Program-made: the position numbers and the translations under genes | From: Thermovibrio guaymasensis | Lineage (GTDB): Bacteria; Aquificota; Aquificia; Desulfurobacteriales; Desulfurobacteriaceae | DNA: 64,000 nt | NCBI RefSeq assembly: GCF_003633715.1 | Contig: NZ_RBIE01000002.1 | Coordinates: forward strand, 186,001 to 250,000 | Reading direction: 5' to 3' | Shown: positions 34,455 through 57,097 of the stretch, piece after piece | How positions within the stretch are numbered: position 1 is the stretch's first letter | Layout: the number at the start of each line of letters is the position of its first letter | Notes under the pieces: generated by a model | What the model saw: only the letters and a program-made list of their open reading frames with translations | What the model was told of the DNA's origin: nothing | Databases searched by the model: none

Positions 34455-34531
34455 TGGAGCGGGCGACGGGATTCGAACCCGCGACCCTCAGCTTGGAAGG
34501 CTGATGCTCTAGCCAGCTGAGCTACGCCCGC
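34455..34531 (-). tRNA. tRNA-Gly (anticodon TCC)
   Basis: The reverse strand folds as a complete cloverleaf: acceptor GCGGGCG/CGCCCGC, D-loop AGCTGGCTA, anticodon loop CTTCCAA, T-loop TTCGAAT. A genomic CCA end is present at 34455-34457. Last member of the four-tRNA cluster. Confidence 0.95.
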
Positions 34532-34535
34532 TCAT

Positions 34536-34612
34536 TGGTTGCGGGGGCGGGATTTGAACCCGCGACCTCCGGGTTATGAGCCCGGCGAGCTACCAGACTG
34601 CTCTACCCCGCG
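34536..34612 (-). tRNA. Initiator tRNA-fMet (anticodon CAT)
   Basis: Cloverleaf with anticodon loop CTCATAA. Initiator features are present: a C1-A72 mismatch at the top of the acceptor stem (CGCGGGG against CCCCGCA) and three G-C pairs at the bottom of the anticodon stem (GGG/CCC). CCA is encoded. Confidence 0.95.
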
Positions 34613-34616
34613 ATAG

Positions 34617-34702
34617 TGGTGGAGGGGGCAGGATTCGAACCTGCGTAGGCGTAAGCCGGCGGATTTACAGTCCGCTGCCTTTGACCACTCGGCCACCCCT
34701 CC
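34617..34702 (-). tRNA. tRNA-Tyr (anticodon GTA)
   Basis: 86 nt with CCA, a class II tRNA with a long variable arm. Acceptor GGAGGGG/CCCCTCC, anticodon loop CTGTAAA, T-loop TTCGAAT. Confidence 0.95.
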
Positions 34703-34706
34703 ACTA

Positions 34707-34783
34707 TGGTGCCGGCTGAGGGAGTCGAACCCCCGACCTGGTGATTACAAGTCACCCGCTCTAGCCAGCTGAGCTAAGCCGGC
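34707..34783 (-). tRNA. tRNA-Thr (anticodon TGT)
   Basis: Cloverleaf with acceptor GCCGGCT/AGCCGGC, anticodon loop CTTGTAA, T-loop TTCGACT and encoded CCA. It is the first tRNA of the cluster, about a dozen nt after the predicted transcription start. Confidence 0.95.
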
Positions 34784-35555: not shown

Positions 35556-35650
35556 GGAGGCGGACGGGGGCTGGTGTCCCCCCCGGACTTCAAATCCGGT
35601 GGCCCCGCTAGGAGCGGGGTGGTGGGTTCGATTCCCATCCGCCTCCGCCA
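35556..35650 (+). tRNA. selC: Selenocysteine tRNA (anticodon TCA)
   Basis: The 95-nt sequence has the marks of tRNA-Sec: an 8-bp acceptor stem GGAGGCGG/CCGCCTCC, a long D stem (GGGGG/CCCCC), anticodon loop CTTCAAA reading UGA, and a long variable arm (GCCCCGC/GCGGGG). It has TTCGATT in the T-loop and an encoded CCA. It implies that the organism inserts selenocysteine at some UGA codons. Its last base is directly followed by the stop codon of convergent radA. Confidence 0.95.
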
Positions 35651-45828: not shown

Positions 45829-45857
45829 TTGATAGATATCAAGTTACCATCTATAAT
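45829..45857 (+). promoter_or_regulatory. Promoter of the island's plus-strand genes
   Basis: TTGATA (45829-45834), a 17-bp spacer and an exact TATAAT (45852-45857) stand 28 nt before the start of the outer membrane protein gene. This is a near-consensus housekeeping promoter and marks the left edge of the island. Confidence 0.75.
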
Positions 45858-45885
45858 TAATTTTACAATTAAGGGGTAACTAAGT

Positions 45886-46662
45886 ATGTTTAAGCTAAAG
45901 TCAGGAAAATACTATCAAATCTGTAGAGTATCGTTGTTAGCCATACCCATAGCAGTTATTCCCTTATGCCAAACTTTAAAAGCTTTTCCCCTTGAAGAGT
46001 TAAAGTTCTTCAAAGAAAAACCTTCAATAACAATGGATATAAAAAATCCAGATAAAATTGGCCTTCCAACGGGGAACGAGGAATCCTACGGGATATCTTA
46101 CTCAGTGGAAAATATGCCGGTAATTCCAGATATAAGAGTTAAATACGTACACCTTCATTCTTCCGGCAAAAAAACGTTAGATCGGGATTTCTCGTATGCA
46201 GATTTAAATTTCAAGTCGGGAACGGAACTCCACTCCAAAATTACAGGCGACAACATAAAACTTACCTTCTACTACCAGCCTCTTGACAGGTTCAACTACG
46301 ATTTTATAAACCTTGAACTTGGAGCTAATCTCCTATTCATAGACTACAAATTAGAAAATACCTTTGAGTACAAAGGTGGATACAGCAAAGAAACGGATAC
46401 CCTCTCAACAATGATCCCGAGCTTACACTTAAAAGTGTCGCTAAATCCAACTTACTACCTAAAATTATCAATCAAGGGGGCACTACCCATAGGAAATAAA
46501 ACAGACAGAGAGTTTGAGTGTGAGGCGGAATACTTCCTAAACCCACAGCTCTACCTTTTCAGCTCCTACAACTACAGCTACACTAAAGCCCATGATATAA
46601 ACGGTTTTGACTTTAAAACGACCTCTAGAGGCGTATCTTTTGGTCTTGGTTTACTTTGGTAA
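45886..46662 (+). CDS. Outer membrane beta-barrel protein (TIGR04219-like)
   Basis: The 258 residues start with a signal peptide (about 1-33, ending KAF). The mature part alternates hydrophobic and polar residues as in a small beta-barrel and ends VSFGLGLLW, with the terminal aromatic residue used for outer membrane insertion. The VIPDIRVKYVHL and KLTFYYQPLDRFNYDFINLELG segments resemble the TIGR04219 outer membrane family. The function is not known. It is transcribed from its own promoter and is followed 27 nt later by the CsgD-like regulator gene. Base composition is visibly AT-richer than that of ruvB. Confidence 0.7.
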   Translation: MFKLKSGKYYQICRVSLLAIPIAVIPLCQTLKAFPLEELKFFKEKPSITMDIKNPDKIGLPTGNEESYGISYSVENMPVIPDIRVKYVHLHSSGKKTLDRDFSYADLNFKSGTELHSKITGDNIKLTFYYQPLDRFNYDFINLELGANLLFIDYKLENTFEYKGGYSKETDTLSTMIPSLHLKVSLNPTYYLKLSIKGALPIGNKTDREFECEAEYFLNPQLYLFSSYNYSYTKAHDINGFDFKTTSRGVSFGLGLLW

Positions 46663-46689
46663 TTTTAACAAAAAGAGTAGGAGTAAAAT

Positions 46690-47316
46690 ATGGAGAAAAT
46701 GAGGGTTTCCTGTGCTTTAACCAGTAAGTTTATCTCTGGGCTTATCAAGGATAAGGTAAATAGTTTAGGAGAGGAGATAAAGTTCGTTTCCTACTGGCAG
46801 AACGCAGATATAGTAATAGTTGACGATAATTTCCTCTTAAATAACTTATCAGAAGTCAATAAAATCATAGATGAGAATAAAATCCTCGTTCTATTGGACT
46901 ACGAACTTTCCGAAGATGATATTGCTGTTTTCCTCAAACTCTTTCCAATAAAGGGGATAATTTATAAAGATATGGATCCTAAACTCCTTAAAAAACTTCT
47001 TTACTCAGTTAAAAACGGTGAAATCTGGATTAAACGTTCTATGTTTCAGTATATACTTAGAGAAAACCTCTCATTAAAAACCTTTTCAACAAAAGAACTG
47101 CAAATTATTCACTACTTACTTAAAGGATATACCAATAAAGAGATTGGAAAACAGCTTGGTTTAACAGAACAAAGCATTAAATACCACATTAATCAATTAC
47201 TAAAGAAGCTTCAATGTGAAAATAGAACACAGTTAATAATAAAACTAATTAAATTTAGAAAATTAATTCAAGCTCTCATAAACCAAAGAGAGCAGATGGA
47301 ATGCTTAAACGCGTAA
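46690..47316 (+). CDS. LuxR-family regulator, CsgD-like
   Basis: The 208-residue protein has an N-terminal receiver-like domain (about 5-125). It keeps the C-terminal pattern IKGIIYKDMDPKLLKKLLYSVKNGEIWI but lacks the usual N-terminal Asp pair, so it may not be phosphorylated. The C-terminal LuxR helix-turn-helix is clear (FSTKELQIIHYLLKGYTNKEIG, then SIKYHINQLLKKL and NRTQ). Size, domain order and atypical receiver resemble CsgD, the curli and biofilm regulator of enterobacteria. The nearby csgEFG genes support that role, but it is inferred from context. A GGAGTAAAATATGG start context is present. Confidence 0.78.
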   Translation: MEKMRVSCALTSKFISGLIKDKVNSLGEEIKFVSYWQNADIVIVDDNFLLNNLSEVNKIIDENKILVLLDYELSEDDIAVFLKLFPIKGIIYKDMDPKLLKKLLYSVKNGEIWIKRSMFQYILRENLSLKTFSTKELQIIHYLLKGYTNKEIGKQLGLTEQSIKYHINQLLKKLQCENRTQLIIKLIKFRKLIQALINQREQMECLNA

Positions 47317-48767
47317 CCTTACTAGCTCACGTTTTAATTCTACTTTCAATGAAAGGAACAGAGGGGGCAGTAGTAGGTAATTCCTACTACTGCGTTCAAG
47401 TTCTATCCAGCGTAAGGGTAACAGAAAAGGAAAAAATCACATTTAGAGAACTCAGCAGAACTTTTAATGAGGTAAGGATTGAAAAAATTGGAAAGTACTA
47501 TACTCTTAGAGTCGGTTTTTGGGACGAAATTGGAAAAGCGAGGAAAGCTCTAAACAAACTAAGAAAGTTAGGTTTTAAGAAAGCTTTCTTAAGAAAGTGC
47601 TACTTCTACCCTAAGAGGTGGATTCTGCCTAAAAAGGAAGTTTCCCATCCAAGCAAACAGGAAGGAAGAAATAAACAACGACCTATTAAAGCTCTCAAAG
47701 AAAAGCCTTATGAAAGTAGGAGACTCTATAGCCTAGTAGAGTCCCTTACAAAGGACATTAACAAAAACGAAAATGGAGTAACAGAGGAAGAGACATACAA
47801 AGTCAATTTCCCGGAAACGAGAAAGGGAAAAAGGAAGGAAAAGAATGTAAAACTATCCGTTGGAACTTCAATCAATAGAGAACTTTCTAAAAGCTACACA
47901 TTTACCCAACTATCCTACAAAGGAGTAGGACTAAGAGTTTTAAGGAAAGGAGAAGAAAACAAACTAGGAGTAGCAGTAAAAGAGTTCTTTAAAGAAAAGT
48001 GGATAAAGGATACGGTCTTACTAAAAGGAGGAATTATTAGAAGAGAGAACTTCCTTGAAGCCTGGAGCCCTATTTCACTTGAAGCTTCAACAGACTTTGT
48101 TGATAAGAAGTTCTCTATTTCCCTGTCATATCAGGGCTTCAGGAATTACAAAAACCAGTTAAACCTCAGAGGACTCCTAGCGTTTAACAGCAAATTAAAT
48201 TACTACTTCACAAACACTTCAGGCATTACCGTTTCTTACCTCTATACTAAGTTCACAAACGGGAGAAAGTCCATCTTTTCAACAGGTAGCAGGTTCAACT
48301 TAAAGGGTTGGAAGGAGAGTTTTTCCTCCTTTGTCTCTTTGAGAGGGAACTCTTACTTCCTGCAACTGGGGAAGGAGTTTAAGGGTATAAACCTAAATGT
48401 CTTCACCGATAAATCGCTGAGTTTTCCACCACAGGCTAAAGGAAATCTTTACTTTGGAAGGTGGATTACTTTCTTCAGTATAGACCCCATGAATCTAACC
48501 GGCGCAAGGGTAACTCTCCCGGTTAAGAACTTCTCATTCATAAGCTCAATCTATTTAACAGACGGTAAAGGAAAAAGGCTTATACTTGGAGAAAAGAAGT
48601 TTAAAAGCAAAGGCAAATTTGTAGGACTGGACTTTTCCCTTAAGTACAGACTAAAAGTGTTCAGAGAGAATTTAAATTTTGGAGGCGGAATATTTTTACC
48701 CGGAAGTGCATTTGAGGACAGAAAACCGAGGACGGGTGGATACCTTGATGTCAAGGTTAGCTGGTAA
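47301..48767 (+). CDS. Secreted SPOR-domain protein with C-terminal beta-barrel
   Basis: The 488 residues begin with a signal peptide (about 1-22). A SPOR-like peptidoglycan-binding domain follows (about 27-105: YYCVQVLSS, then KYYTLRVGFW and LGFKKAFLRKCYF), then a charged linker (about 110-180). From about residue 185 to the end, amphipathic strands separated by short turns suggest a 14-16-stranded outer membrane barrel, ending LDVKVSW with a terminal Trp. A protein joining the cell wall to an outer membrane pore would fit a secretion or export role. It overlaps the regulator gene by 16 nt and the lipoprotein gene by 20 nt. I do not recognise a named family. Confidence 0.65.
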   Translation: MLKRVTLLAHVLILLSMKGTEGAVVGNSYYCVQVLSSVRVTEKEKITFRELSRTFNEVRIEKIGKYYTLRVGFWDEIGKARKALNKLRKLGFKKAFLRKCYFYPKRWILPKKEVSHPSKQEGRNKQRPIKALKEKPYESRRLYSLVESLTKDINKNENGVTEEETYKVNFPETRKGKRKEKNVKLSVGTSINRELSKSYTFTQLSYKGVGLRVLRKGEENKLGVAVKEFFKEKWIKDTVLLKGGIIRRENFLEAWSPISLEASTDFVDKKFSISLSYQGFRNYKNQLNLRGLLAFNSKLNYYFTNTSGITVSYLYTKFTNGRKSIFSTGSRFNLKGWKESFSSFVSLRGNSYFLQLGKEFKGINLNVFTDKSLSFPPQAKGNLYFGRWITFFSIDPMNLTGARVTLPVKNFSFISSIYLTDGKGKRLILGEKKFKSKGKFVGLDFSLKYRLKVFRENLNFGGGIFLPGSAFEDRKPRTGGYLDVKVSW

Positions 48768-49788
48768 AGCTCTTACCCTCCTTCCTTTACTTTTATTTTC
48801 GTGTTCAAGCCCTCCTTTAACCTACCAGCAAATTTCAACCTGCAGTGTTGAAGCTAAAAGGCTAAACGAAGTTGAGAAGCTAGCAGATAAAGGCTTTGGT
48901 GAAGCACAACTATGTGCAGGAAAACTCCTTTTAAAAGAAGGAAAGAGCACTAAAGCAAGGAAATATCTCCTTAAAGCGTTTAAACAGCTCTCCGGCAGGA
49001 AAAGGGGAGAGGCAGCCTACCTAGTAGGTAAAACCTATCTAATGGAGAAAAAGGTAAATAGAGGAAGAAGCTGGTTCTTTAAAGCGATAGAGAACGGTTA
49101 CCCAAACAGGGAATTCTTTAAAACAAGCCACTACTTAAGCCTTAAAGAACTAAAGGAGATTGAGGAACTTGGTAAGGAAGAGCCGATACTTTACTTATAC
49201 TTGGGAGACTACCTAAGGGAGAATGAGCTCTACAAAGGAGCTCTCTTTTACTATCAGCTTGCAATAAGGTACGGGATAAAGGAAGCAAGAATCGGTTCAG
49301 CCGTTAGCCTCTTTAAGTTAGGAAACAGAAAACTTGCAGTTTCAATCCTTAAAGAAGAGTTTAGAAAGGGTAAAAAAGAGGCTGCCAACGTACTGGGAGA
49401 ACTTTTACTTGAGGAAGCATCCTCTGTAGGTAAGGGAAATTGTTTACTAATAAGCGAATCGGACCCGGAGGAGTTCTTAAGAAGGAGAATTAAACAAATT
49501 AAGGAAAAAGCCAGGTTATATAAGGAAGCGTATAGCTGGTTTATAAAAGCAAACAATAGAAGGAAAGCCAAAGAGAGCTTTTACCTGTACGAAGTTTACT
49601 CTCTGAAAAAAAGGGCTCCCCTCCCCAGAGGAAACTTCACAGTTCAAGAACTAAAGAGGCTGTGCAGAAAGGGAAACTTCTGGGCAGAATACTTACTATC
49701 CCAGAGGATAAAAACCCCCACTTCAAAGGCCGCCTCTATCCTTTACGAAAAGCTATTTAACTATCCAGCTTACCTTGAGGGAAGATAA
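48748..49788 (+). CDS. Sel1/TPR-repeat lipoprotein
   Basis: The start at 48748 follows GGTGGA and gives a lipoprotein signal with Cys near residue 19 (LLLFSCSS). A longer frame starts inside the previous gene and would bury this signal. The 346 residues contain Sel1-type helical repeats, e.g. GFGEAQLCAGKLLLKEG, GEAAYLVGKTYL and ALFYYQLAIRYG. Lipoproteins of this kind (AlgK is an example) work beside outer membrane barrels in polysaccharide export. Coupling to the preceding barrel gene supports such a pairing, but this is inference. The 3' end overlaps the convergent GGDEF-like gene by 32 nt. Confidence 0.7.
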   Translation: MSRLAGKALTLLPLLLFSCSSPPLTYQQISTCSVEAKRLNEVEKLADKGFGEAQLCAGKLLLKEGKSTKARKYLLKAFKQLSGRKRGEAAYLVGKTYLMEKKVNRGRSWFFKAIENGYPNREFFKTSHYLSLKELKEIEELGKEEPILYLYLGDYLRENELYKGALFYYQLAIRYGIKEARIGSAVSLFKLGNRKLAVSILKEEFRKGKKEAANVLGELLLEEASSVGKGNCLLISESDPEEFLRRRIKQIKEKARLYKEAYSWFIKANNRRKAKESFYLYEVYSLKKRAPLPRGNFTVQELKRLCRKGNFWAEYLLSQRIKTPTSKAASILYEKLFNYPAYLEGR

Positions 49789-50278
49789 AGGGCAATTTAA
49801 ATTCACCTTTAAGTTCTCTGACACTAATCTTCATAAGTGCCTTTAGGTTTACCCCGTCATAAGGGATAATCTTAAAAGAGTAATTTAAACTGCCGACAAT
49901 CAAACCATTTTTCCTCATAACATACCTTATTCTTGAAAGAATTTTCTGAATGTTCACCCCTTCCGCAGGAGGCTTAGAAGTAACAACCGCAACAGAATAG
50001 ATGTTCTCAGACAAACTGGCTACAAGGTCATAGGATCTAAAGCTTTTAACCAAGTCTACCTCAAAATTCTTTCTCTTCTCCTCAGACAGATAAAGAACTC
50101 TGAAGAAAACAAGAACTATCTTTTCCCTCTCCCTTACACACTTTACAACTTCCCTTGATAAGCTCTTTAGGAATTCCTCTGAACTCCTTATTATCCTGTT
50201 GCTCGGATCCTCAAACTTGAACAAAAAAGGGTAGGAATCCCTTCTATCCTTAAACAGATGATCCCTCAAAGCCTCCAT
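49757..50278 (-). CDS. Small protein resembling a degenerate GGDEF domain
   Basis: I do not recognise this 173-residue protein with certainty. Its central part follows the GGDEF-domain order: a hydrophobic strand IVLVFFRVLYLS, then SFRSYDLVASLSENIYSVAVV where the catalytic GG(D/E)EF would sit (here SLSENIY), then VGSLNYSFKIIPYDGVNLKALMKI, matching the S-x-G-x-A-x-x-P-x-D-G and helix that follow. The substrate- and metal-binding residues are missing, so it could not make cyclic di-GMP but might bind a nucleotide or a partner. GGAGGGAGAG precedes the ATG. It follows the ankyrin gene by 103 bp. Confidence 0.5.
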   Translation of the reverse strand: MEALRDHLFKDRRDSYPFLFKFEDPSNRIIRSSEEFLKSLSREVVKCVREREKIVLVFFRVLYLSEEKRKNFEVDLVKSFRSYDLVASLSENIYSVAVVTSKPPAEGVNIQKILSRIRYVMRKNGLIVGSLNYSFKIIPYDGVNLKALMKISVRELKGEFKLPFIFPQGKLDS

Positions 50279-50381
50279 CTCTCCCTCCTAAAAAAGTATC
50301 GTACACTCTTTCATTGTATAGAAGAACAGAAACCTTACCTTTAAACCTTTTAAAAACTTCAAAGAGAAATCAGTTTTAAAC

Positions 50382-52952
50382 TTACAGTTGCTTTTCATTC
50401 CCCGAAAGTACAAAATCAACCATCTCTTTAAGTACATGAAACTTACCACTCTTAGCTGCCTCAACCAGAGGCGTAATGCCTTGGGAATCCTTCTCATCAA
50501 GACTTGCACCTGCTTCCAGCAGAACCCTAACTACCTTGGCAGAATCGCTTGAGGCGGCATAGTGAAGGGGTGTCTTCTTAAGTATATCCTCAGGAGACGG
50601 ATTAACTCCGGCCTCTATGAGAAAACGGGCAAACTTTGATGCGCCAAACATACCGCAGAAGTGGAGTGGCGTTTTTCCAAAGTTATCCTTAAAATCAAGA
50701 TAGGCTCCCGCTTCAACTAAAACTTTGGCAGTTTCAATATCATCACTCTTTGAAACAAGGTGGATAGGAAGCCTTCCAAAGTTATCTTTCTGGTTTACAG
50801 GAACTCCCTTTTCTACCAGGAAAGCGGCGCACTTTGGAGCTCCAAGGGCCGCAGCATAGTGAAGCAACGTCTGCCCCTCCTTCCCTAACTGGTTTAAAGA
50901 AAGACGGCCACTTTCAATTAGAGCCTTTAGAAAACCTACCCTGTCCGACTTCAAAATTGACTTAACAAGAGGACTTTCAGGAGTAAAACCTGAGCCAATG
51001 TAATCTGTAAAGGTGGAAAAGAGCTCCTCATCTCCAACTTCCATTACGTAGTCAAGGGGGGTCTTTCCCGAAGAGTCGGCTTCGCTGATAAGGTCAGGAG
51101 AAGACTCCATGAGAGACGAAACTGCATCCCTGTTTCCCGACATAACGGCAAGATGAAGGGGAGTCCTGCCCTCAACATCCTTTAAACTAACGTCAGCTCC
51201 TTTTTCAAGGAGCAAATTTAATACTTTACTGCTCTTTGAGATAACGGCAAGGTGGAGGGGAGTTTGCCCCTGGTTATCCGTAACGTTTAAATCGGCCCCT
51301 CTCTCAACCAGAATGTTGGCAACCTCAAAACTGTCCTTCGGAGCGCAAAGGTGAAGAGGAGTTTTCCCTCCCTTATCCTTAAGGTTAACGTCAGCTCCGC
51401 TATCAATCAACATCTGTGAAACTTCAGGGCCGTTGATAAAAGCAGAAATGTGAAGGGGAGAAACCATGTGAGGGTCTAAAACGTTAGGGTCTGCTCCTGC
51501 CTTTAGGAGAATCTCCACCAATTCCGGACTGTTAAGCTCACAGGCGTAGTGTAAGGGAGTTCTTCCAACTTCATCGGCCCTTTTAATGTCAGCACCTGAA
51601 AGTATAAGCTTCCTAACGCTCTCAGGCTGGTTCTTCAAGACGGCATAGTGGAGTGGAGTCCTTCCCTTCTTATTCTCCCTGTTTACGTCAGCCCCGCTGC
51701 TCAAGAGAAACTGCAGAACCTCTAAACTACCGTTTGCAGCAGCGTAGTGAAGAGGAGTTCCTCCAAACACATCTTCCGCCTCAATCTGTGCTCCAGCCTC
51801 AAGGAGGGCCTTAACCACTTCAACTGCGTTAATGGCAGCAGCGTGGTGAAGCGGAGTCTTCCCTTCTCCTCCCCTCTCATTGGGATTAAAACCTTCCCCA
51901 ATCAAGAGCTTAAGGGAGTTGACTGACTTTGAAACTGCAGCCTCAATTAAAAGCCCCTTATCCTTCAGCTCACCTTTTGAATCCCCTTTAAGGAGGAGCT
52001 GAAGGATTTCAACGTTGTCGTTGGCTACTGCGTAATGGGCCGGAGTCCTGCCTAAGCTGTCAACTTCAGAAACCGAAGCTCCATAAGAGATGAGGAGTTC
52101 AACCAAGTCCTTAAAGTTCCTTGAAACTGCATAGTGGAGTGGCGTCTTTCCTAGCTTATCCTTACTTCCAGGATCAGCTCCCAAATCAAGGAGGGCTCTG
52201 ACAACGTCAAGGTCTCCAACGTTTACAGCATAGTGAATCGGGTAGAGGTTATCGTTATCCGGAATGTCCTTAAGAAAAAACAGCTCCTTAACCAGAAAAA
52301 GGTTCCTGTTATTAACCGCTTTGTGCAGGGCAGTTTGCCCCCTTAAGTCCCTCTCCTTTACTTCTGCTCCCTTTTCAATTAAGAAGAGAACTGAGCTCTG
52401 CGCGTCCTTTTCAGCCGCAAAGATTAAAGGTGTGTACCCAAGAGAATCCTTATAGTTTAGGTCTGCGCCTGATGAAATAAGCAGGGTCATAGTTTCCGGT
52501 TTTGACTTAGCAGCAGCGTAAAAGAGGGGAGTCCTACCCTTCTTATCGGGTATATCAGGGTTCTCTACCTTACCGATTAAGAGCTTAAGAACCTCTAAGC
52601 TCCCTGCACTTGCAGCGTAGTGGAGGGGAGTCCTTCCCTCCTCATCAACAGAATCGGGTTGAGCTCCGAGGGAGAGTAACTTCTGGGCTGCCTCAACAGA
52701 GTTGGCGGCTGCAGCGTAGTGAAGAGGAGTTCTGCCCTTCTTATCCCTTTCGTCAAGTGAGAGGCCCAGCTTAACGAGGAGTTCAACGATTTCAGCAGCG
52801 TTAGACTTGGCTGCAAGGTGGAGGAAAGACTGTCCCTTTTCGTTAACTGTAAACGGGTTTTCTCCCTTACGAACTCCTTCTGAAAAGAGGTTTATGTCCT
52901 TTGAAAGGATTCCGCTCAATAGGAGAGAGCTCTTTTGTTTAACGCTATCCAT
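50382..52952 (-). CDS. Giant ankyrin-repeat protein (about 25 repeats)
   Basis: The 856 residues are built almost entirely of 33-residue ankyrin repeats. I count about 25, most with the G-R/K-TPLHYAA start and L-L-x-x-G-A-D-V-N end. Two or three around residues 310-345 and 630-670 are degenerate. There is no signal peptide or membrane segment, so the protein is probably cytoplasmic and forms a long superhelical binding surface. GAGGTAATAG precedes the ATG at 52952. It follows csgG by 161 bp on the same strand. Ankyrin proteins are not a normal part of curli loci, and the partner is unknown. Confidence 0.9.
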   Translation of the reverse strand: MDSVKQKSSLLLSGILSKDINLFSEGVRKGENPFTVNEKGQSFLHLAAKSNAAEIVELLVKLGLSLDERDKKGRTPLHYAAAANSVEAAQKLLSLGAQPDSVDEEGRTPLHYAASAGSLEVLKLLIGKVENPDIPDKKGRTPLFYAAAKSKPETMTLLISSGADLNYKDSLGYTPLIFAAEKDAQSSVLFLIEKGAEVKERDLRGQTALHKAVNNRNLFLVKELFFLKDIPDNDNLYPIHYAVNVGDLDVVRALLDLGADPGSKDKLGKTPLHYAVSRNFKDLVELLISYGASVSEVDSLGRTPAHYAVANDNVEILQLLLKGDSKGELKDKGLLIEAAVSKSVNSLKLLIGEGFNPNERGGEGKTPLHHAAAINAVEVVKALLEAGAQIEAEDVFGGTPLHYAAANGSLEVLQFLLSSGADVNRENKKGRTPLHYAVLKNQPESVRKLILSGADIKRADEVGRTPLHYACELNSPELVEILLKAGADPNVLDPHMVSPLHISAFINGPEVSQMLIDSGADVNLKDKGGKTPLHLCAPKDSFEVANILVERGADLNVTDNQGQTPLHLAVISKSSKVLNLLLEKGADVSLKDVEGRTPLHLAVMSGNRDAVSSLMESSPDLISEADSSGKTPLDYVMEVGDEELFSTFTDYIGSGFTPESPLVKSILKSDRVGFLKALIESGRLSLNQLGKEGQTLLHYAAALGAPKCAAFLVEKGVPVNQKDNFGRLPIHLVSKSDDIETAKVLVEAGAYLDFKDNFGKTPLHFCGMFGASKFARFLIEAGVNPSPEDILKKTPLHYAASSDSAKVVRVLLEAGASLDEKDSQGITPLVEAAKSGKFHVLKEMVDFVLSGNEKQL

Positions 52953-53113
52953 CTATTACCTCATTAGTTATTTTACAAATTATTTTACAAATACTAAATA
53001 ATACAACATACTTTACAGAAAATGGACAAACTTTTGGTTACCCATTAGGAAACAAAAGTTTCAAAAAAAAATTAAACCAAAGGATCTCTTTATTTAAACT
53101 TTAAACAAACTTT
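52953..53113 (-). other. Gap between csgG and the ankyrin gene
   Basis: 161 bp of very AT-rich DNA with runs of A and T and no coding sequence. It probably holds the csgG transcript end and the ankyrin gene promoter. A CCTTTGG mini-stem followed by TTTAATTTTTTTTT on the minus strand is the only terminator-like element, and it is weak. Confidence 0.4.
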
Positions 53114-54118
53114 TTATTTCCTGTTTTTCTTTGATTTTTCATACCACTGAATAAGGTTTCTCTCCTCTTTTACCCTCTTTAAGTACTGTGCCAGTTCCTT
53201 CTCCGTAAAGTCCCTTCCCAGTATTCTCCTGAGGTTATCCTCTTCCTTTTTAAGCTCTTCTGTTTTCCACTTAAAGTACTTTTGAACAACGGGAGAGTAA
53301 ATATCTGAAGGGTTCTTAGGCTGCCAATACCCCTTTACCATTCCCTCAACTATTAAAGCGTAGAGAGCCTTCTCTATAGCCCCTTGAAGGGCATAAAGCC
53401 CGGGTTCGTTAGTTGTTACCCCAGTCTCAAGCTGGAAGAGCCTCTTCCACTTTACGTACTTAAAGGCGTGAACGTCAAGCTCTCTAGAAAGGAGAGTTTT
53501 GGTAGCAGTCACGGTTAAGAGAACCTCTCCGGTTTTAGCGGCAATTGCCCTAAGGTAAACTGTAACCCTATCTCTCCTGAGCTGAGTAGAACCGCCAACT
53601 CCGAAGTACTTGGCTCCAAAGCCTCCTGTAACTACATCAGTGTCATAACCGATTATCCCGCCAGTTAAGATAATAGGAGCAAACTTAAGGGGTGGAAGTA
53701 CATCCCCTTTAGGCTTTAAACCTTTCTTCTTAAGCTCCTGTTCTATGGAGCTCCTTATTATCCTCCTCTCAGTCAGCAGGTCCGCAAGGCTCTCCCTCTC
53801 CAGCGGGAGGAACCAGCCACTATCGTAAGCTGCTTTAATTAGAATAGATGCTGCTCCCTGAGTAACTGCAGTTGAAAAAGTACTTATATTGTTATAGACC
53901 TTGTACTGACCGGTCTGGTCCCTGAAGTTGTAAATGGCAACCGGAATAAGCTCTTTAGGGGGAGGAAGGAACTGAAGGAGACTGTGGGCCGGAGGTTCCT
54001 CATTGACAACCGGGGGTTTAACTGAGACTGGAGTTGAGGGAGCTATAGAGTTGTAGGCACAGCCGGAAGTCAAAAGGACAAGTAGCCCAAAGGCAGCAGT
54101 AAACTTAAATTTGGACAT
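53114..54118 (-). CDS. csgG: Curli secretion channel lipoprotein CsgG
   Basis: CsgG is the outer membrane lipoprotein that forms the nonameric channel exporting curli subunits. The 334 residues start with a lipoprotein signal, Cys20 in LLTSGCAYN. Family features follow: PVAIYNFRDQTGQYK, GAASILIKAAYDSGWFLPLERE, LTERRIIR and the GGIIGYDTDVVTGGFGAKYFGVGGSTQLRRD stretch in separate pieces, then VTVYLRAI. A C-terminal extension of about 60 residues beyond the E. coli length is rich in Lys and Glu. GAGGGGGTGAT precedes the ATG. It lies 53 nt after csgF. Confidence 0.93.
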   Translation of the reverse strand: MSKFKFTAAFGLLVLLTSGCAYNSIAPSTPVSVKPPVVNEEPPAHSLLQFLPPPKELIPVAIYNFRDQTGQYKVYNNISTFSTAVTQGAASILIKAAYDSGWFLPLERESLADLLTERRIIRSSIEQELKKKGLKPKGDVLPPLKFAPIILTGGIIGYDTDVVTGGFGAKYFGVGGSTQLRRDRVTVYLRAIAAKTGEVLLTVTATKTLLSRELDVHAFKYVKWKRLFQLETGVTTNEPGLYALQGAIEKALYALIVEGMVKGYWQPKNPSDIYSPVVQKYFKWKTEELKKEEDNLRRILGRDFTEKELAQYLKRVKEERNLIQWYEKSKKNRK

Positions 54119-54171
54119 AAAATCACCCCCTCAAATGGTAGGGGTATTTTATCAAGTTAAACTTTCGTTTT

Positions 54172-54588
54172 CTACTTGTTATACATTGGAACTTCAACGG
54201 TAGTTTGATTTCCAGTAGTAGTATCCACTAAAATAACTTGAATATCCGTTCCTGTGGGCTTCACTTGAACTTGAAAGTTTCCTATTTCGTAAGTTCCAGG
54301 TTTAAGTTCTTCTTCACCAAAAGCAGCATCAGCTATTTTAGATGCCAGTCTGCTTAGAATTAAATACTTCAAACGGTTTTTAAAATCTTCCAGCTCTGAT
54401 TCTTTCTGTTCCTCCCTTTTAGTAGGAGGATGGTATATATTCTGCTTTTCTGCCTCATTAAAGAAACCATACCAGTAGTCAGGATCTCCGCCAAAATCGG
54501 GAATTAAGAACTTGTAGGTCATAGTTGAGGAGTAAGAAGTTGAAGAAAGAAAAAACAATATAAGTCCTGATAATAATACTTTCCTCAC
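54172..54588 (-). CDS. csgF: Curli assembly factor CsgF
   Basis: CsgF sits at the CsgG pore and couples secretion to nucleation on the surface. The 138 residues have a signal peptide (about 1-20). The mature N-terminus TMTYKFLIPDFGGDP closely matches the CsgF pore-binding peptide pattern T-M-T-F-x-F-x-N-P-x-F-G-G-N-P. The C-terminal part carries YEIGNFQVQV and VILVDTTTGNQTTVEVP, the usual beta-strand ending. The start is GTG, behind GGAGGG. It lies between csgE and csgG. Confidence 0.92.
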   Translation of the reverse strand: MRKVLLSGLILFFLSSTSYSSTMTYKFLIPDFGGDPDYWYGFFNEAEKQNIYHPPTKREEQKESELEDFKNRLKYLILSRLASKIADAAFGEEELKPGTYEIGNFQVQVKPTGTDIQVILVDTTTGNQTTVEVPMYNK

Positions 54589-54602
54589 TTTCCCTCCAAA
54601 AA

Positions 54603-55058
54603 TTAGAATTTTTCATTCTCTGCTTTAAACTTTAAAAAATCTGTAAGCAAGTATTTAAGTACCCTCTTTGAGGCAACTACTGCCTGTCTTTGCATGTCAA
54701 AATTTGAAGTAGTCGGTTTCAACATGGAGTAATATACTATTCTCATATATATATTGTCTCCTACTTTAATGTAAATCCAACTTTGGCGAAAAGAAGGTTT
54801 TTTCTCCTCTATTATAATAAAATAGCTGTCTATTCCCTTAGGGGGTTTCCAAACCTCACTGAAGGTTTTGTAAAACTTATGTCCCCACGGAGTTTTAGTT
54901 TTATCTATTATTAAATAGTCTATATCACTGTTACTGGAACTTCCAAAAGAGGGTAAAGAAAAAGAAAAAAGAACAAATAAAGAAAATAAAATAAAGAGGA
55001 AGGGAGCTACTACCCCCTTCCTCTTTATCCTTACAGCCGAACAATAATTAGTTAACAT
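54603..55058 (-). CDS. csgE: Curli assembly factor CsgE
   Basis: CsgE is the periplasmic adaptor that caps CsgG and directs curli subunits to it. The predicted protein is 151 residues from the ATG at 55058, which overlaps the curlin stop. Residues up to about 38 would form a long signal peptide with a basic segment (RIKRK) and a hydrophobic core. The mature part holds DYLIIDKTKTPWGHKFYKTFSEVW, IIIEEKKPSFRQSWIYIKV and KPTTSNFD, which fit CsgE. Other ATGs at 55064 and 55076 are possible starts. A terminator-like hairpin lies within its first codons. Confidence 0.85.
   Translation of the reverse strand: MLTNYCSAVRIKRKGVVAPFLFILFSLFVLFSFSLPSFGSSSNSDIDYLIIDKTKTPWGHKFYKTFSEVWKPPKGIDSYFIIIEEKKPSFRQSWIYIKVGDNIYMRIVYYSMLKPTTSNFDMQRQAVVASKRVLKYLLTDFLKFKAENEKF
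54974..55028 (-). terminator. Terminator-like hairpin between curlin and csgE (probable attenuator)
   Basis: On the minus strand a perfect 14-bp stem, ATAAAGAGGAAGGG against CCCTTCCTCTTTAT with a 10-nt loop (55028-54991), begins 20 nt after the curlin stop. It is followed by a T-rich run (TTTATTTTCTTTATTTG). It lies inside the 5' coding part of csgE, so some transcripts must read through. Coding of csgE across a strong terminator suggests attenuation. Confidence 0.8.
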
Positions 55059-56889
55059 CAACATGAACACTAGCATTCGTACCAGATACTGTCTTCTGGT
55101 ATATTTTAACAACATTATCGCTAGAAGAGATAGAGATGTCAGCAAAGGCAGTATCAGATCCTTTCTGGTATACAAGAACCTGGTTGTTGTTAGCACCAGC
55201 TGCGATGCTGAGCTTAAATGTGGCAGTCAGATCAGCCTCTTGGTATAGTGCAATCTGGTTATTGCTGGCAGGATCACTGGAAGTTCCAATGTCTATATCC
55301 ATTTTAGCTGCTCCGGCACTTGCAATCTGAGTTAAACCTTCATCAGCATCAAATTTTAGGTCATCAACGCCGGAGACAGAACTTGGATTATCAAGAGCAA
55401 CGATCTTGTTGCTGTCACCGTGGATGAAGATATCAGTATCAACTCCCTGTCCCTTAATCTCGTCAACACGAATTAGGTTCTTATTTCCTGTAATGGAAGT
55501 CTTAAAGCTAAGGGTTTCGCTATCTTTAGTATTGTCAATCTTCTCAACAATAACTTTGTTTTCATCTCCCGAAATGTCCATAGCAAGAGTAGCATCTTTC
55601 TCTGAATCAACATCCTTAAAGGTTACAGTGTTTGATGTTCCTACAATGTCAAGGGTATCATCGCTGTAACCCTTAACTGTTAAGTTACCATCAACACTTC
55701 CACCTAAAATCTGGAAGACGTTTGTTCCATCCCCATTATTGTCCATGTTAATCTTAGCCGTAAGTTTTCCATCTACAGTAAGGTCATCAATAATAACTTT
55801 GTTAGCTCCTGAGGCCTTGTCGTTATCCTGAGTAATTGTAATATTAGCTTCTCCTACGCTAACTTCTTGAGAGTTTGCTATTACAACGCTGTTAGTACCG
55901 TCACCTTTCTGAGTAATGTCAAGGGTAATATCACCACTTGTTGACTTGAAGGCTGTTGAATCATCCACACCTAGAGTAATTGTGTCCTTATTACCCTCTT
56001 GATCAGCATTTAGAGTAAAGGCTGAGTTACTGTTAACGTTCTTAATTTCAATAGTTCCTTCTGTTCCGGTCTGAGTAATACCTAAGTCGGCATTAGCTCC
56101 AGTTACAAGCCTGTTAACTATGAGCTTATCAGCTCCGTTCTGCTCCATAGCTTTAGAATCATCATTATAAGCGTGAACGCTTAAATCTCCTCCAACATCA
56201 ACACCTGTTGAGTCAACACCTGTTGAGTCTGAACCGAAGTAAGCTTCGTTACCACCTCCGTGTTGCCACATATTAATTGAAATAGAACCGTCCGCTTCAA
56301 TCTTGGAGAAGTGAGTTTTGTTAACTCCATCATCCTGAGAAAGATTGATTGTTATTGATGCACCATCCTTCGTGCTCTTCACGAGACCGAGGTAAGTCTC
56401 ATCTTTTCCATCTTGTGAAAGGCTTACAGTAATATCTCCATTATTAGAGATCACGCTTGGAGAACCTGCAGGAGCATCTGAAAGTGTCTCCTTAACGAAC
56501 TTGTTATCTCCACCGGACTGCTTAATAGTAACCTTAACAGTTCCCTTAGCGTTGTTTTCAAATTTTGAGTAATCGCTCTCATCTGCAGTCTTGAAGACTA
56601 ACTTAGCATTATTAGCACCAATCTGGTTGTTACCATCGTGCTGAAAACCGTAGAGGTAAGTGTTCTTACCGGCTTCAATAACATAAGCTTTGTTTGGGCT
56701 GTCTTTTGCACTCTTTTGCTCAAACTTCTTATCTGATTCATTTTCGCTCTTAGCTACATTAGCTTCTCCTGAGTAGTGCTGTTCTACAACAAGCTCATCC
56801 TGAGTTGCCGCATTGGCCAATCCTGCGTAGGATACTCCTCCTACCGCTAGGAGCGCTAGTGATGTTTTGAGTAGCTTCCTGACTCCCAT
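55048..56889 (-). CDS. Large curlin-like amyloid subunit
   Basis: The 613-residue protein starts with a signal peptide ending near AGLANA. The mature part is made of about 20 imperfect units of 20-30 residues with the curlin outline x-V-x-I-x-Q-x-G-x-x-N-x-x-x-V, e.g. VTIKQSGGDNKFV, VSLSQDGKDETYL, INMWQHGGGNEAYF, LDITQKGDGTNSVVI and LVYQKGSDTAFADI. Gln, Asn and Gly positions match CsgA repeats, but the protein is about four times the size of E. coli CsgA and more acidic. Its position before csgE, csgF and csgG supports export by CsgG. A strong AAAGGAGGAGGT ribosome site precedes the ATG. No small CsgA or CsgB gene is present. Confidence 0.85.
   Translation of the reverse strand: MGVRKLLKTSLALLAVGGVSYAGLANAATQDELVVEQHYSGEANVAKSENESDKKFEQKSAKDSPNKAYVIEAGKNTYLYGFQHDGNNQIGANNAKLVFKTADESDYSKFENNAKGTVKVTIKQSGGDNKFVKETLSDAPAGSPSVISNNGDITVSLSQDGKDETYLGLVKSTKDGASITINLSQDDGVNKTHFSKIEADGSISINMWQHGGGNEAYFGSDSTGVDSTGVDVGGDLSVHAYNDDSKAMEQNGADKLIVNRLVTGANADLGITQTGTEGTIEIKNVNSNSAFTLNADQEGNKDTITLGVDDSTAFKSTSGDITLDITQKGDGTNSVVIANSQEVSVGEANITITQDNDKASGANKVIIDDLTVDGKLTAKINMDNNGDGTNVFQILGGSVDGNLTVKGYSDDTLDIVGTSNTVTFKDVDSEKDATLAMDISGDENKVIVEKIDNTKDSETLSFKTSITGNKNLIRVDEIKGQGVDTDIFIHGDSNKIVALDNPSSVSGVDDLKFDADEGLTQIASAGAAKMDIDIGTSSDPASNNQIALYQEADLTATFKLSIAAGANNNQVLVYQKGSDTAFADISISSSDNVVKIYQKTVSGTNASVHVDVN
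56199..56228. repeat. 15-bp exact tandem duplication in the curlin gene
   Basis: The 15-mer CAACACCTGTTGAGT occurs twice in a row (56199-56213 and 56214-56228), keeping frame and encoding a duplicated STGVD unit. It looks like a recent slippage or recombination event in the repeat protein. Confidence 0.9.
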
Positions 56890-56891
56890 GA

Positions 56892-56952
56892 TACCTCCTC
56901 CTTTGGTTGGTTTTATGATTTAGCTTCTGTGATTAAGTATAGGGAGGAGGTA
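56892..56952 (-). promoter_or_regulatory. Ribosome-binding-site hairpin in the curlin leader
   Basis: In the mRNA, UACCUCCUCC (56952-56943) is the exact complement of GGAGGAGGUA (56901-56892), which contains the whole Shine-Dalgarno sequence of the curlin gene. The 10-bp stem closes a 41-nt loop. A second pyrimidine tract (ACUCCUCCC, 56963-56955) can pair with much of the same site. Such a fold would block translation until it melts or is displaced. Confidence 0.65.
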
Positions 56953-56997
56953 GAGGGAGGAGTTACTTTTTCAGTTTAAGTTGAGGAAAATTTTTGT

Positions 56998-57034
56998 TTT
57001 AACCGATAGTTTCTTTTTCTTTAACCTAAAGTTT
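56998..57034 (-). repeat. Two 15-bp direct repeats in the curlin leader
   Basis: On the minus strand AAACTTTAGGTTAAA (57034-57020) and AAACTATCGGTTAAA (57012-56998) agree at 13 of 15 positions and are 22 bp apart, about two helical turns. They lie about 30-65 nt downstream of the predicted transcription start. They could be operator sites or an RNA element. Confidence 0.6.
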
Positions 57035-57068
57035 GTTCTTTTTTACCTATTCAATTTTGTTGGCAGTA

Positions 57069-57097
57069 ATTATACAATTTTTTTCTCAATCTGTCAA
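57069..57097 (-). promoter_or_regulatory. Consensus promoter of the curlin-csgEFG operon
   Basis: TTGACA (57097-57092), a 17-bp spacer and TATAAT (57074-57069) match the sigma-70 consensus exactly. Transcription would start near 57062, giving a leader of about 170 nt before the curlin ATG. Confidence 0.85.

Follow-up and report, generated by a model that had tools for sequence, protein, structure and literature searches.

Does a block of ten genes between ruvB and serA in Thermovibrio guaymasensis, in which curli secretion genes stand among non-standard partners, encode one surface system, and is that system truly curli? The question arose from a 64,000-nucleotide stretch of this genome (hereafter the window; contig NZ_RBIE01000002.1, positions 186,001 to 250,000), in which an earlier note, made from the letters alone, had picked out csgE, csgF and csgG behind a large curlin-like gene and had suggested that the whole block works as one surface-matrix system. 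Comparisons across the family Desulfurobacteriaceae (n=22 genomes) and its phylum (n=136) indicate that the locus very probably encodes genuine curli (type VIII secretion), in a ten-gene form specific to this lineage. CsgG occurs in 5 of the 22 family genomes and CsgF in the same five among the 136 of the phylum, and all ten genes (curlin, csgE, csgF, csgG, ankyrin, dead-GGDEF, LuxR/VpsT-like regulator, SPOR-barrel, TPR lipoprotein and small barrel) are found together in 5/5 csgEFG-bearing family genomes, spread over two genera, two arrangements and two chromosomal sites.

To establish whether the core is curli, the identity of the secretion genes comes first. Judged against the curated Pfam cut-offs, which we used throughout, CsgG (PF03783, E 8.4e-56), CsgF (PF10614, E 2.4e-31) and CsgE (PF10627, E 2.7e-9) all lie above threshold, as expected from the motifs by which they had first been named. 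CsgG additionally carries the lipobox SGC and has E. coli CsgG as its closest solved structures (E 3e-54), and the order on one strand is curlin, csgE, csgF, csgG. The gene in front of csgE is read as curlin-like, given that the PF07012 curlin repeat exceeds its cut-off of 20.7 bits in the orthologues of two relatives, G001 and G013, at the orthologous position (22.6 and 21.9 bits). A profile of all six members finds curlin 8c50 as its best PDB match (E 0.014), and the degenerate curlin motif of Sleutel et al. (PMC10192328) occurs 6 times in the 613-aa window protein against 0.5 in shuffles; strict curlin regular expressions (QX10Q) gave no enrichment over shuffles in the same protein. No second curlin gene was found in the window genome or elsewhere in the family, no csgC among the locus genes (list of open reading frames [ORFs] and Pfam), and no separate CsgB nucleator, the curlin gene being single in the genome. 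These absences are no bar to the curli class, because csgC occurs in only two gammaproteobacterial orders and CsgA and CsgB are distinguishable only in Gammaproteobacteria. The very large subunit, earlier thought non-standard, turned out not to be so: curlins with 4-62 repeats, degenerate curlin classes and curlins of comparable size have all been described (PMC10192328), and we rejected the idea that the large subunit is new.

The same protein carries the alternative that survives best, namely that it is a large non-amyloid beta-solenoid adhesin exported via the CsgG pore. Degenerate repeats, few canonical Q..Q units, a high Asp/Lys content, a window copy without a Pfam match and a weak profile-profile match to canonical curlins (probability 30%, E 6e-4) would all suit such an adhesin, which we nevertheless consider unlikely given that orthologues pass the curlin-repeat cut-off, that the best structural match is itself a curlin, that degenerate and similarly sized curlins are on record (PMC10192328), and that the protein is linked to, and co-varies with, csgE and csgF.

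That co-variation became visible when six loci were compared, these being the cassettes of the five csg-positive genomes and L008, a short contig holding SPOR-barrel, lipoprotein, curlin, csgE, csgF and csgG in that order. The L008 contig (JALVMZ010000237.1) is filed under a Desulfobacteraceae metagenome-assembled genome (MAG); it is probably mis-binned, since in its SPOR and lipoprotein genes it shares 81-89% identity with L010/L012 of genus g6, and the MAG itself yielded no full-length ankyrin gene. Among these loci the dead-GGDEF, barrel, LuxR, SPOR, lipoprotein, CsgG and ankyrin proteins follow genus, with 77-95% identity for L010-L012 and 23-43% across genera (76-79% for CsgG). Curlin, CsgE and CsgF behave otherwise, such that L009 (genus g1) and L012 (genus g6) share 58% identity in curlin against 25-30% otherwise, 71% in CsgF against 46-55%, and 55% in CsgE against 45-52%.

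Phylogenetic analyses revealed the same conflict, with L009+L012 supported for curlin (100/100), CsgF (100/100) and CsgE (99/97), and window+L009 supported for CsgG (100/99) and ankyrin (100/100); the window CsgE and CsgF group with the other genus. The approximately unbiased (AU) test rejected the genus clade, window+L009, for curlin (2e-13), CsgF (1.4e-4), CsgE (5e-3) and CsgE+CsgF (1e-5), and rejected L009+L012 for CsgG (7e-5) and ankyrin (2e-43), p values that are somewhat optimistic because the groups were picked after the identities were known. DNA identity between L010 and L012 is 82-92% as far as the curlin leader. Past the signal peptide it is only 37-51% across most of mature curlin, then 50-65% through csgE and csgF, and within csgG and ankyrin it is back at 78-94%. 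One edge of the block therefore coincides with the signal-peptide boundary, and the other lies within the 5' part of csgG. These sequence comparisons show mature curlin, CsgE and CsgF as allelic types that cross genera, whereas CsgG and ankyrin follow genus. The cross-genus types would therefore have been inherited or exchanged together, in a single block served by a common pore; most simply read, subunit, CsgE and CsgF form a matched set that moves as a unit. The divergence within types means that the event or polymorphism is old. That the entire cassette was recently transferred horizontally between the genera was rejected, because ankyrin and five accessory proteins share only 23-43% identity from one genus to the other. 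We regard it as improbable that the cross-genus types reflect an assembly chimera or the sorting of an old polymorphism rather than block exchange: L012 does come from a fragmented genome, G018, on an 18-kb contig, and the divergence between the L009 and L012 types (58% in curlin) marks an old event that ancestral-polymorphism sorting also fits, but both block edges lie inside genes with flanks that match the genus type, and the window shows the conflict independently on a 307-kb contig.

Whether the remaining six genes belong to the system was assessed by comparing gene neighbourhoods across the family, with a positive outcome. In the window genome and G001 the cassette lies between serA and ruvB as two convergent halves, the window having two convergent operons with partners partly on the strand opposite the csg genes. 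In the three genomes of genus g6 it is a single co-oriented operon at a different site, with overlapping or nearly touching genes in the order dead-GGDEF, barrel, LuxR, SPOR-barrel, lipoprotein, curlin, csgE, csgF, csgG, ankyrin. No family genome has csgEFG without these neighbours, and full-length partner orthologues were found in the family only in csg-positive genomes and in G008 (by searches with profiles of the partner proteins other than LuxR). G008 has the 173-aa protein, barrel, LuxR, SPOR and lipoprotein genes and an ankyrin fragment, with no csgF, csgG or curlin match, and two of its contigs (L018 = C38 and L019 = C12) end inside the barrel and ankyrin genes at identical transposase sequence. 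On this evidence its locus is a decaying cassette, broken by insertion-sequence copies, because of those breaks and the missing csgF, csgG and curlin. The remnant stands at a third site, beside guaB/argH.

As an outside control we used nine csgEFG loci (L065-L073) from genomes of the phylum Desulfobacterota, which share with the cassette the csgEFG order and, in most, a nearby LuxR-class regulator. They differ in having canonical QxGxxN-rich curlins, and ankyrin, dead-GGDEF, SPOR-barrel, lipoprotein and barrel genes were not detected near them, so that the ten-gene form is a lineage-specific curli variant. The co-occurrence in all csg-positive family genomes, taken with this control, therefore argues for one system specific to the lineage, in support of the earlier suggestion. 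That a curli core simply lies next to a surface island with which it has nothing to do, its six additional genes being neighbours by chance or co-transfer, is the least probable alternative, since csgEFG without partners in other phyla, partners partly on the opposite strand in the window genus, and other relatives of the barrel, ankyrin and SPOR proteins elsewhere in family genomes have to be set against ten genes united in five genomes, two genera, two sites and two orders, a tightly packed co-oriented operon in one genus, and full-length orthologues that never occur alone save in insertion-broken remnants.

Evaluating the partners further, we found that the 173-aa protein matches real GGDEF proteins of the family by profile (E ~1e-8), and that its AlphaFold2 model (predicted local distance difference test, pLDDT, 77) has only GGDEF domains as top Foldseek matches (best E 1.9e-6). 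The GGDEF-like label it had been given thus stood, and by sequence the domain is degenerate and catalytically dead: the GGDEF signature is lost in 6/6 orthologues (SENIY in the window, then SWGVY, SDTTY, SNGIF, SDSTY and AGDLY) and the DxDxF metal motif is missing in all six. All six nevertheless keep the I-site RxxD and a distal Arg unchanged, these being R81xxD84 and R116 in the 173-aa protein, and the equivalent triad binds cyclic di-GMP (c-di-GMP) in PelD (PMC7112168). A receptor is thus a better reading of the protein than an enzyme, and its ligand may be c-di-GMP. It shares with PelD-type degenerate receptors a GGDEF fold without active site and an RxxD I-site plus second Arg (PMC7112168), and differs in standing alone at 150-173 aa, without the other PelD domains, and in its linkage to curli instead of a polysaccharide operon. 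The regulator opposite the csg genes is CsgD-like as proposed, with a LuxR helix-turn-helix above cut-off (E 3e-16) and a profile that aligns with NarL and VpsT along most of its extent; the class is broad, so that its presence at the locus agrees with a CsgD-like role and is not diagnostic alone. In the regulator, the invariant residues W113 and R116 line up with the Trp and Arg of the W-L-T-R stretch in VpsT, the third position being K/R instead of T (W-I-K-R), and R134 of VpsT is required for c-di-GMP binding (PMC3359988).

The ankyrin assignment was confirmed (Pfam E 6e-175, above cut-off). Of the two proteins previously described as outer membrane barrels, the small one has a paralogue elsewhere in most genomes of the family, and the larger also carries a SPOR domain that had gone unnamed (E 3.4e-5, above cut-off, about residues 27-98), followed by an all-beta C-terminal part of ~16 strands ending in Trp; their barrel nature is putative. 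The Sel1 lipoprotein keeps its lipobox and loses its Sel1 label, the matches being weak TPR models below cut-off. In five relatives (G002, G007, G016, G018 and G003) we observed an alginate-like exopolysaccharide locus (L020-L024) with a ManC-type GMP/PMI, a GDP-mannose/UDP-glucose dehydrogenase, a GT2 synthase, beta-helix proteins and a PilZ+HlyD protein, which we take to be of the Alg44 type. At its exporter position stand an adjacent SPOR protein and TPR lipoprotein, an AlgE/AlgK-like pair with homology to the two cassette proteins (E down to 1e-37 for the lipoprotein and ~1e-24 or better for the SPOR part). The lipoprotein of this locus is absent from the window genome and G001. Because of this similar pair, the cassette pair is probably derived from, or shares its origin with, an exporter pair, the differences being that the cassette has no synthase or sugar genes and that SPOR-protein homology is confined to the SPOR part. 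Our guess is that the pair anchors or positions curli.

Signals for expression were found at both ends of the block and inside it. The ends of the block as the earlier note had drawn it coincide with the promoter-like sites 57097-57069 (-) and 45829-45857 (+), of which the site before curlin is sigma-70-like and perfect (12/12), both being consensus matches only. The hairpin after the curlin stop folds at -30 kcal/mol (z score -5.2), and a G+C-rich hairpin followed by T-rich sequence stands at the same position in 6/6 loci with differing sequences. In 5/6 loci the csgE ATG overlaps the curlin 3' end; in L012 the csgE start lies past the hairpin. Because hairpin and T tract encode the CsgE signal peptide, the terminator-like hairpin and that peptide share bases (window 54988-55058, -), a single DNA stretch under two constraints in 5/6 loci. 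The hairpin fits an attenuation that would yield excess subunit over machinery. The curlin leader constitutes weaker evidence, and no mechanism is built on it: a complement to the Shine-Dalgarno (SD) sequence (anti-SD) and a predicted SD-sequestering fold occur in 6/6 loci, the complementarity is equalled by 0 to 36 of 1000 upstream-part shuffles per locus, and an equally long, GC-rich anti-SD match occurs in 0/24 control genes. A scan with Rfam at gathering cut-offs found tRNAs only, and thus no known riboswitch or other cis-regulatory RNA in the leader. We do not read the leader as an RNA thermometer, as predicted SD pairing is nearly constant over temperature, control genes often show SD pairing by itself (median 0.66), and the L009 leader fold is no better than shuffles.

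Features of the curli cassette in the window (positions are those of the 64,000-nucleotide stretch).
Feature	Position	Strand	Remarks
Cassette region	45829-57097		ten genes between ruvB and serA
Promoter-like site TTGATA-17-TATAAT	45829..45857	+	11/12; upstream of regulator/barrel operon; consensus match only
Small outer-membrane barrel-like protein	45886..46662	+	258 aa; C-terminal Trp; weak OMP_b-brl match
LuxR-type regulator	46690..47316	+	208 aa; N-terminal pseudo-receiver; NarL/VpsT/CsgD class
SPOR-barrel	47301..48767	+	488 aa; putative peptidoglycan-binding outer-membrane barrel
TPR/Sel1-like lipoprotein	48748..49788	+	lipobox LLLFSC; ORF open from 48679
Degenerate GGDEF-domain protein	49757..50278	-	173 aa
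Ankyrin-repeat protein	50382..52952	-	856 aa; signal peptide: none seen
csgG	53114..54118	-	lipoprotein; outer-membrane curli pore
csgF	54172..54588	-	
csgE	54603..55058	-	ATG at 55058, 11-nt overlap with curlin stop; ORF open to 55196
Hairpin plus U-rich tail	54988..55031	-	20 bp; just past curlin stop; inside csgE signal-peptide region
Large curlin-like subunit	55048..56889	-	613 aa; signal peptide; degenerate QxGxxN/[VIT]x[VIT]xQ repeats
Curlin 5' leader	56892..56952	-	anti-SD UACCUCCUCC (56952-56943) vs SD AAGGAGGAGGUA (56903-56892)
Promoter-like site TTGACA-17-TATAAT	57069..57097	-	12/12; upstream of curlin operon; consensus match only

The placement between ruvB and serA held, with ten ORFs at the expected coordinates, as did the AT-richer composition (GC 0.34-0.42 over most of the block and 0.42-0.48 in the ankyrin gene, against ~0.45 in the surroundings) and the attribution to Aquificota, the relatives being labelled Desulfurobacteriaceae and Thermovibrio. 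Between cassette and ruvB, G001 has additional small ORFs, one of them for a short ankyrin protein (L077, 1731-4688), which the window lacks. The window also holds a selenocysteine tRNA at 35556-35646 (+; Rfam RF01852, 80.8 bits), near a four-tRNA cluster at 34458-34783.

Several points weigh against the proposed ten-gene curli system. The six loci come from few species and are partly from MAGs, the window curlin has no Pfam match of its own and few canonical QxGxxN units, the SPOR-barrel model is of low confidence (pLDDT 43) and too poor for a fold search, and what the ankyrin protein, SPOR-barrel, lipoprotein and small barrel do is inferred. A bolder reading, which we hold to be less likely than not, is a c-di-GMP-gated amyloid factory with two outer-membrane complexes, in which a CsgG pore accepting interchangeable blocks of curlin, CsgE and CsgF passed between genera would stand beside a peptidoglycan-anchored, alginate-exporter-like SPOR-barrel/lipoprotein complex, with a cytosolic ankyrin holdase. 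In the main reading, the LuxR/VpsT-like regulator would switch the cassette on, and the dead-GGDEF protein would report c-di-GMP to the regulator or to the machine. Curlin, made in far greater amount than the machinery by way of the hairpin, would cross the inner membrane by Sec and be threaded through the CsgG pore, which CsgE would cap and to which CsgF would be the outer adaptor; substrate specificity would reside in CsgE and CsgF, leaving CsgG as a generic pore. SPOR-barrel and TPR lipoprotein would form a second envelope complex for peptidoglycan anchoring or for matrix positioning or export, and the cytosolic ankyrin solenoid could be a scaffold or holdase for the aggregation-prone subunit.

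The cassette shares with the curli of E. coli and Salmonella (csgBAC-csgDEFG) the CsgG lipoprotein pore, CsgE, CsgF with its conserved N-terminal pore peptide, a putative secreted curlin-repeat subunit and a CsgD-class LuxR regulator, and departs from it in having one large subunit instead of CsgA and CsgB, no csgC, six extra conserved genes, alternative operon orders, and subunit and csgE in one operon with a hairpin between. Curli from many phyla are known, as are curli encoded by a single operon and large curlins with many repeats (PMC3521004, PMC10192328), and Dueholm et al. 2012 (PMC3521004) describe lone systems in Thermodesulfobacteria and Desulfovibrionales. Aquificae go unmentioned in the text of these two curli surveys, no curli report for Aquificota was found in the literature searched, and, as far as our searches show, neither the ten-gene form nor the link to a dead-GGDEF protein nor the exchange of the block has been described.

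These observations place curli in a deep-branching thermophilic phylum, Aquificota, and define six conserved partner genes. A dead-GGDEF protein built into the curli locus suggests direct c-di-GMP input there. The mosaic represents a natural experiment on which Csg parts recognise the amyloid subunit, and it predicts that a match to the subunit would be needed for CsgE and CsgF and not for CsgG.

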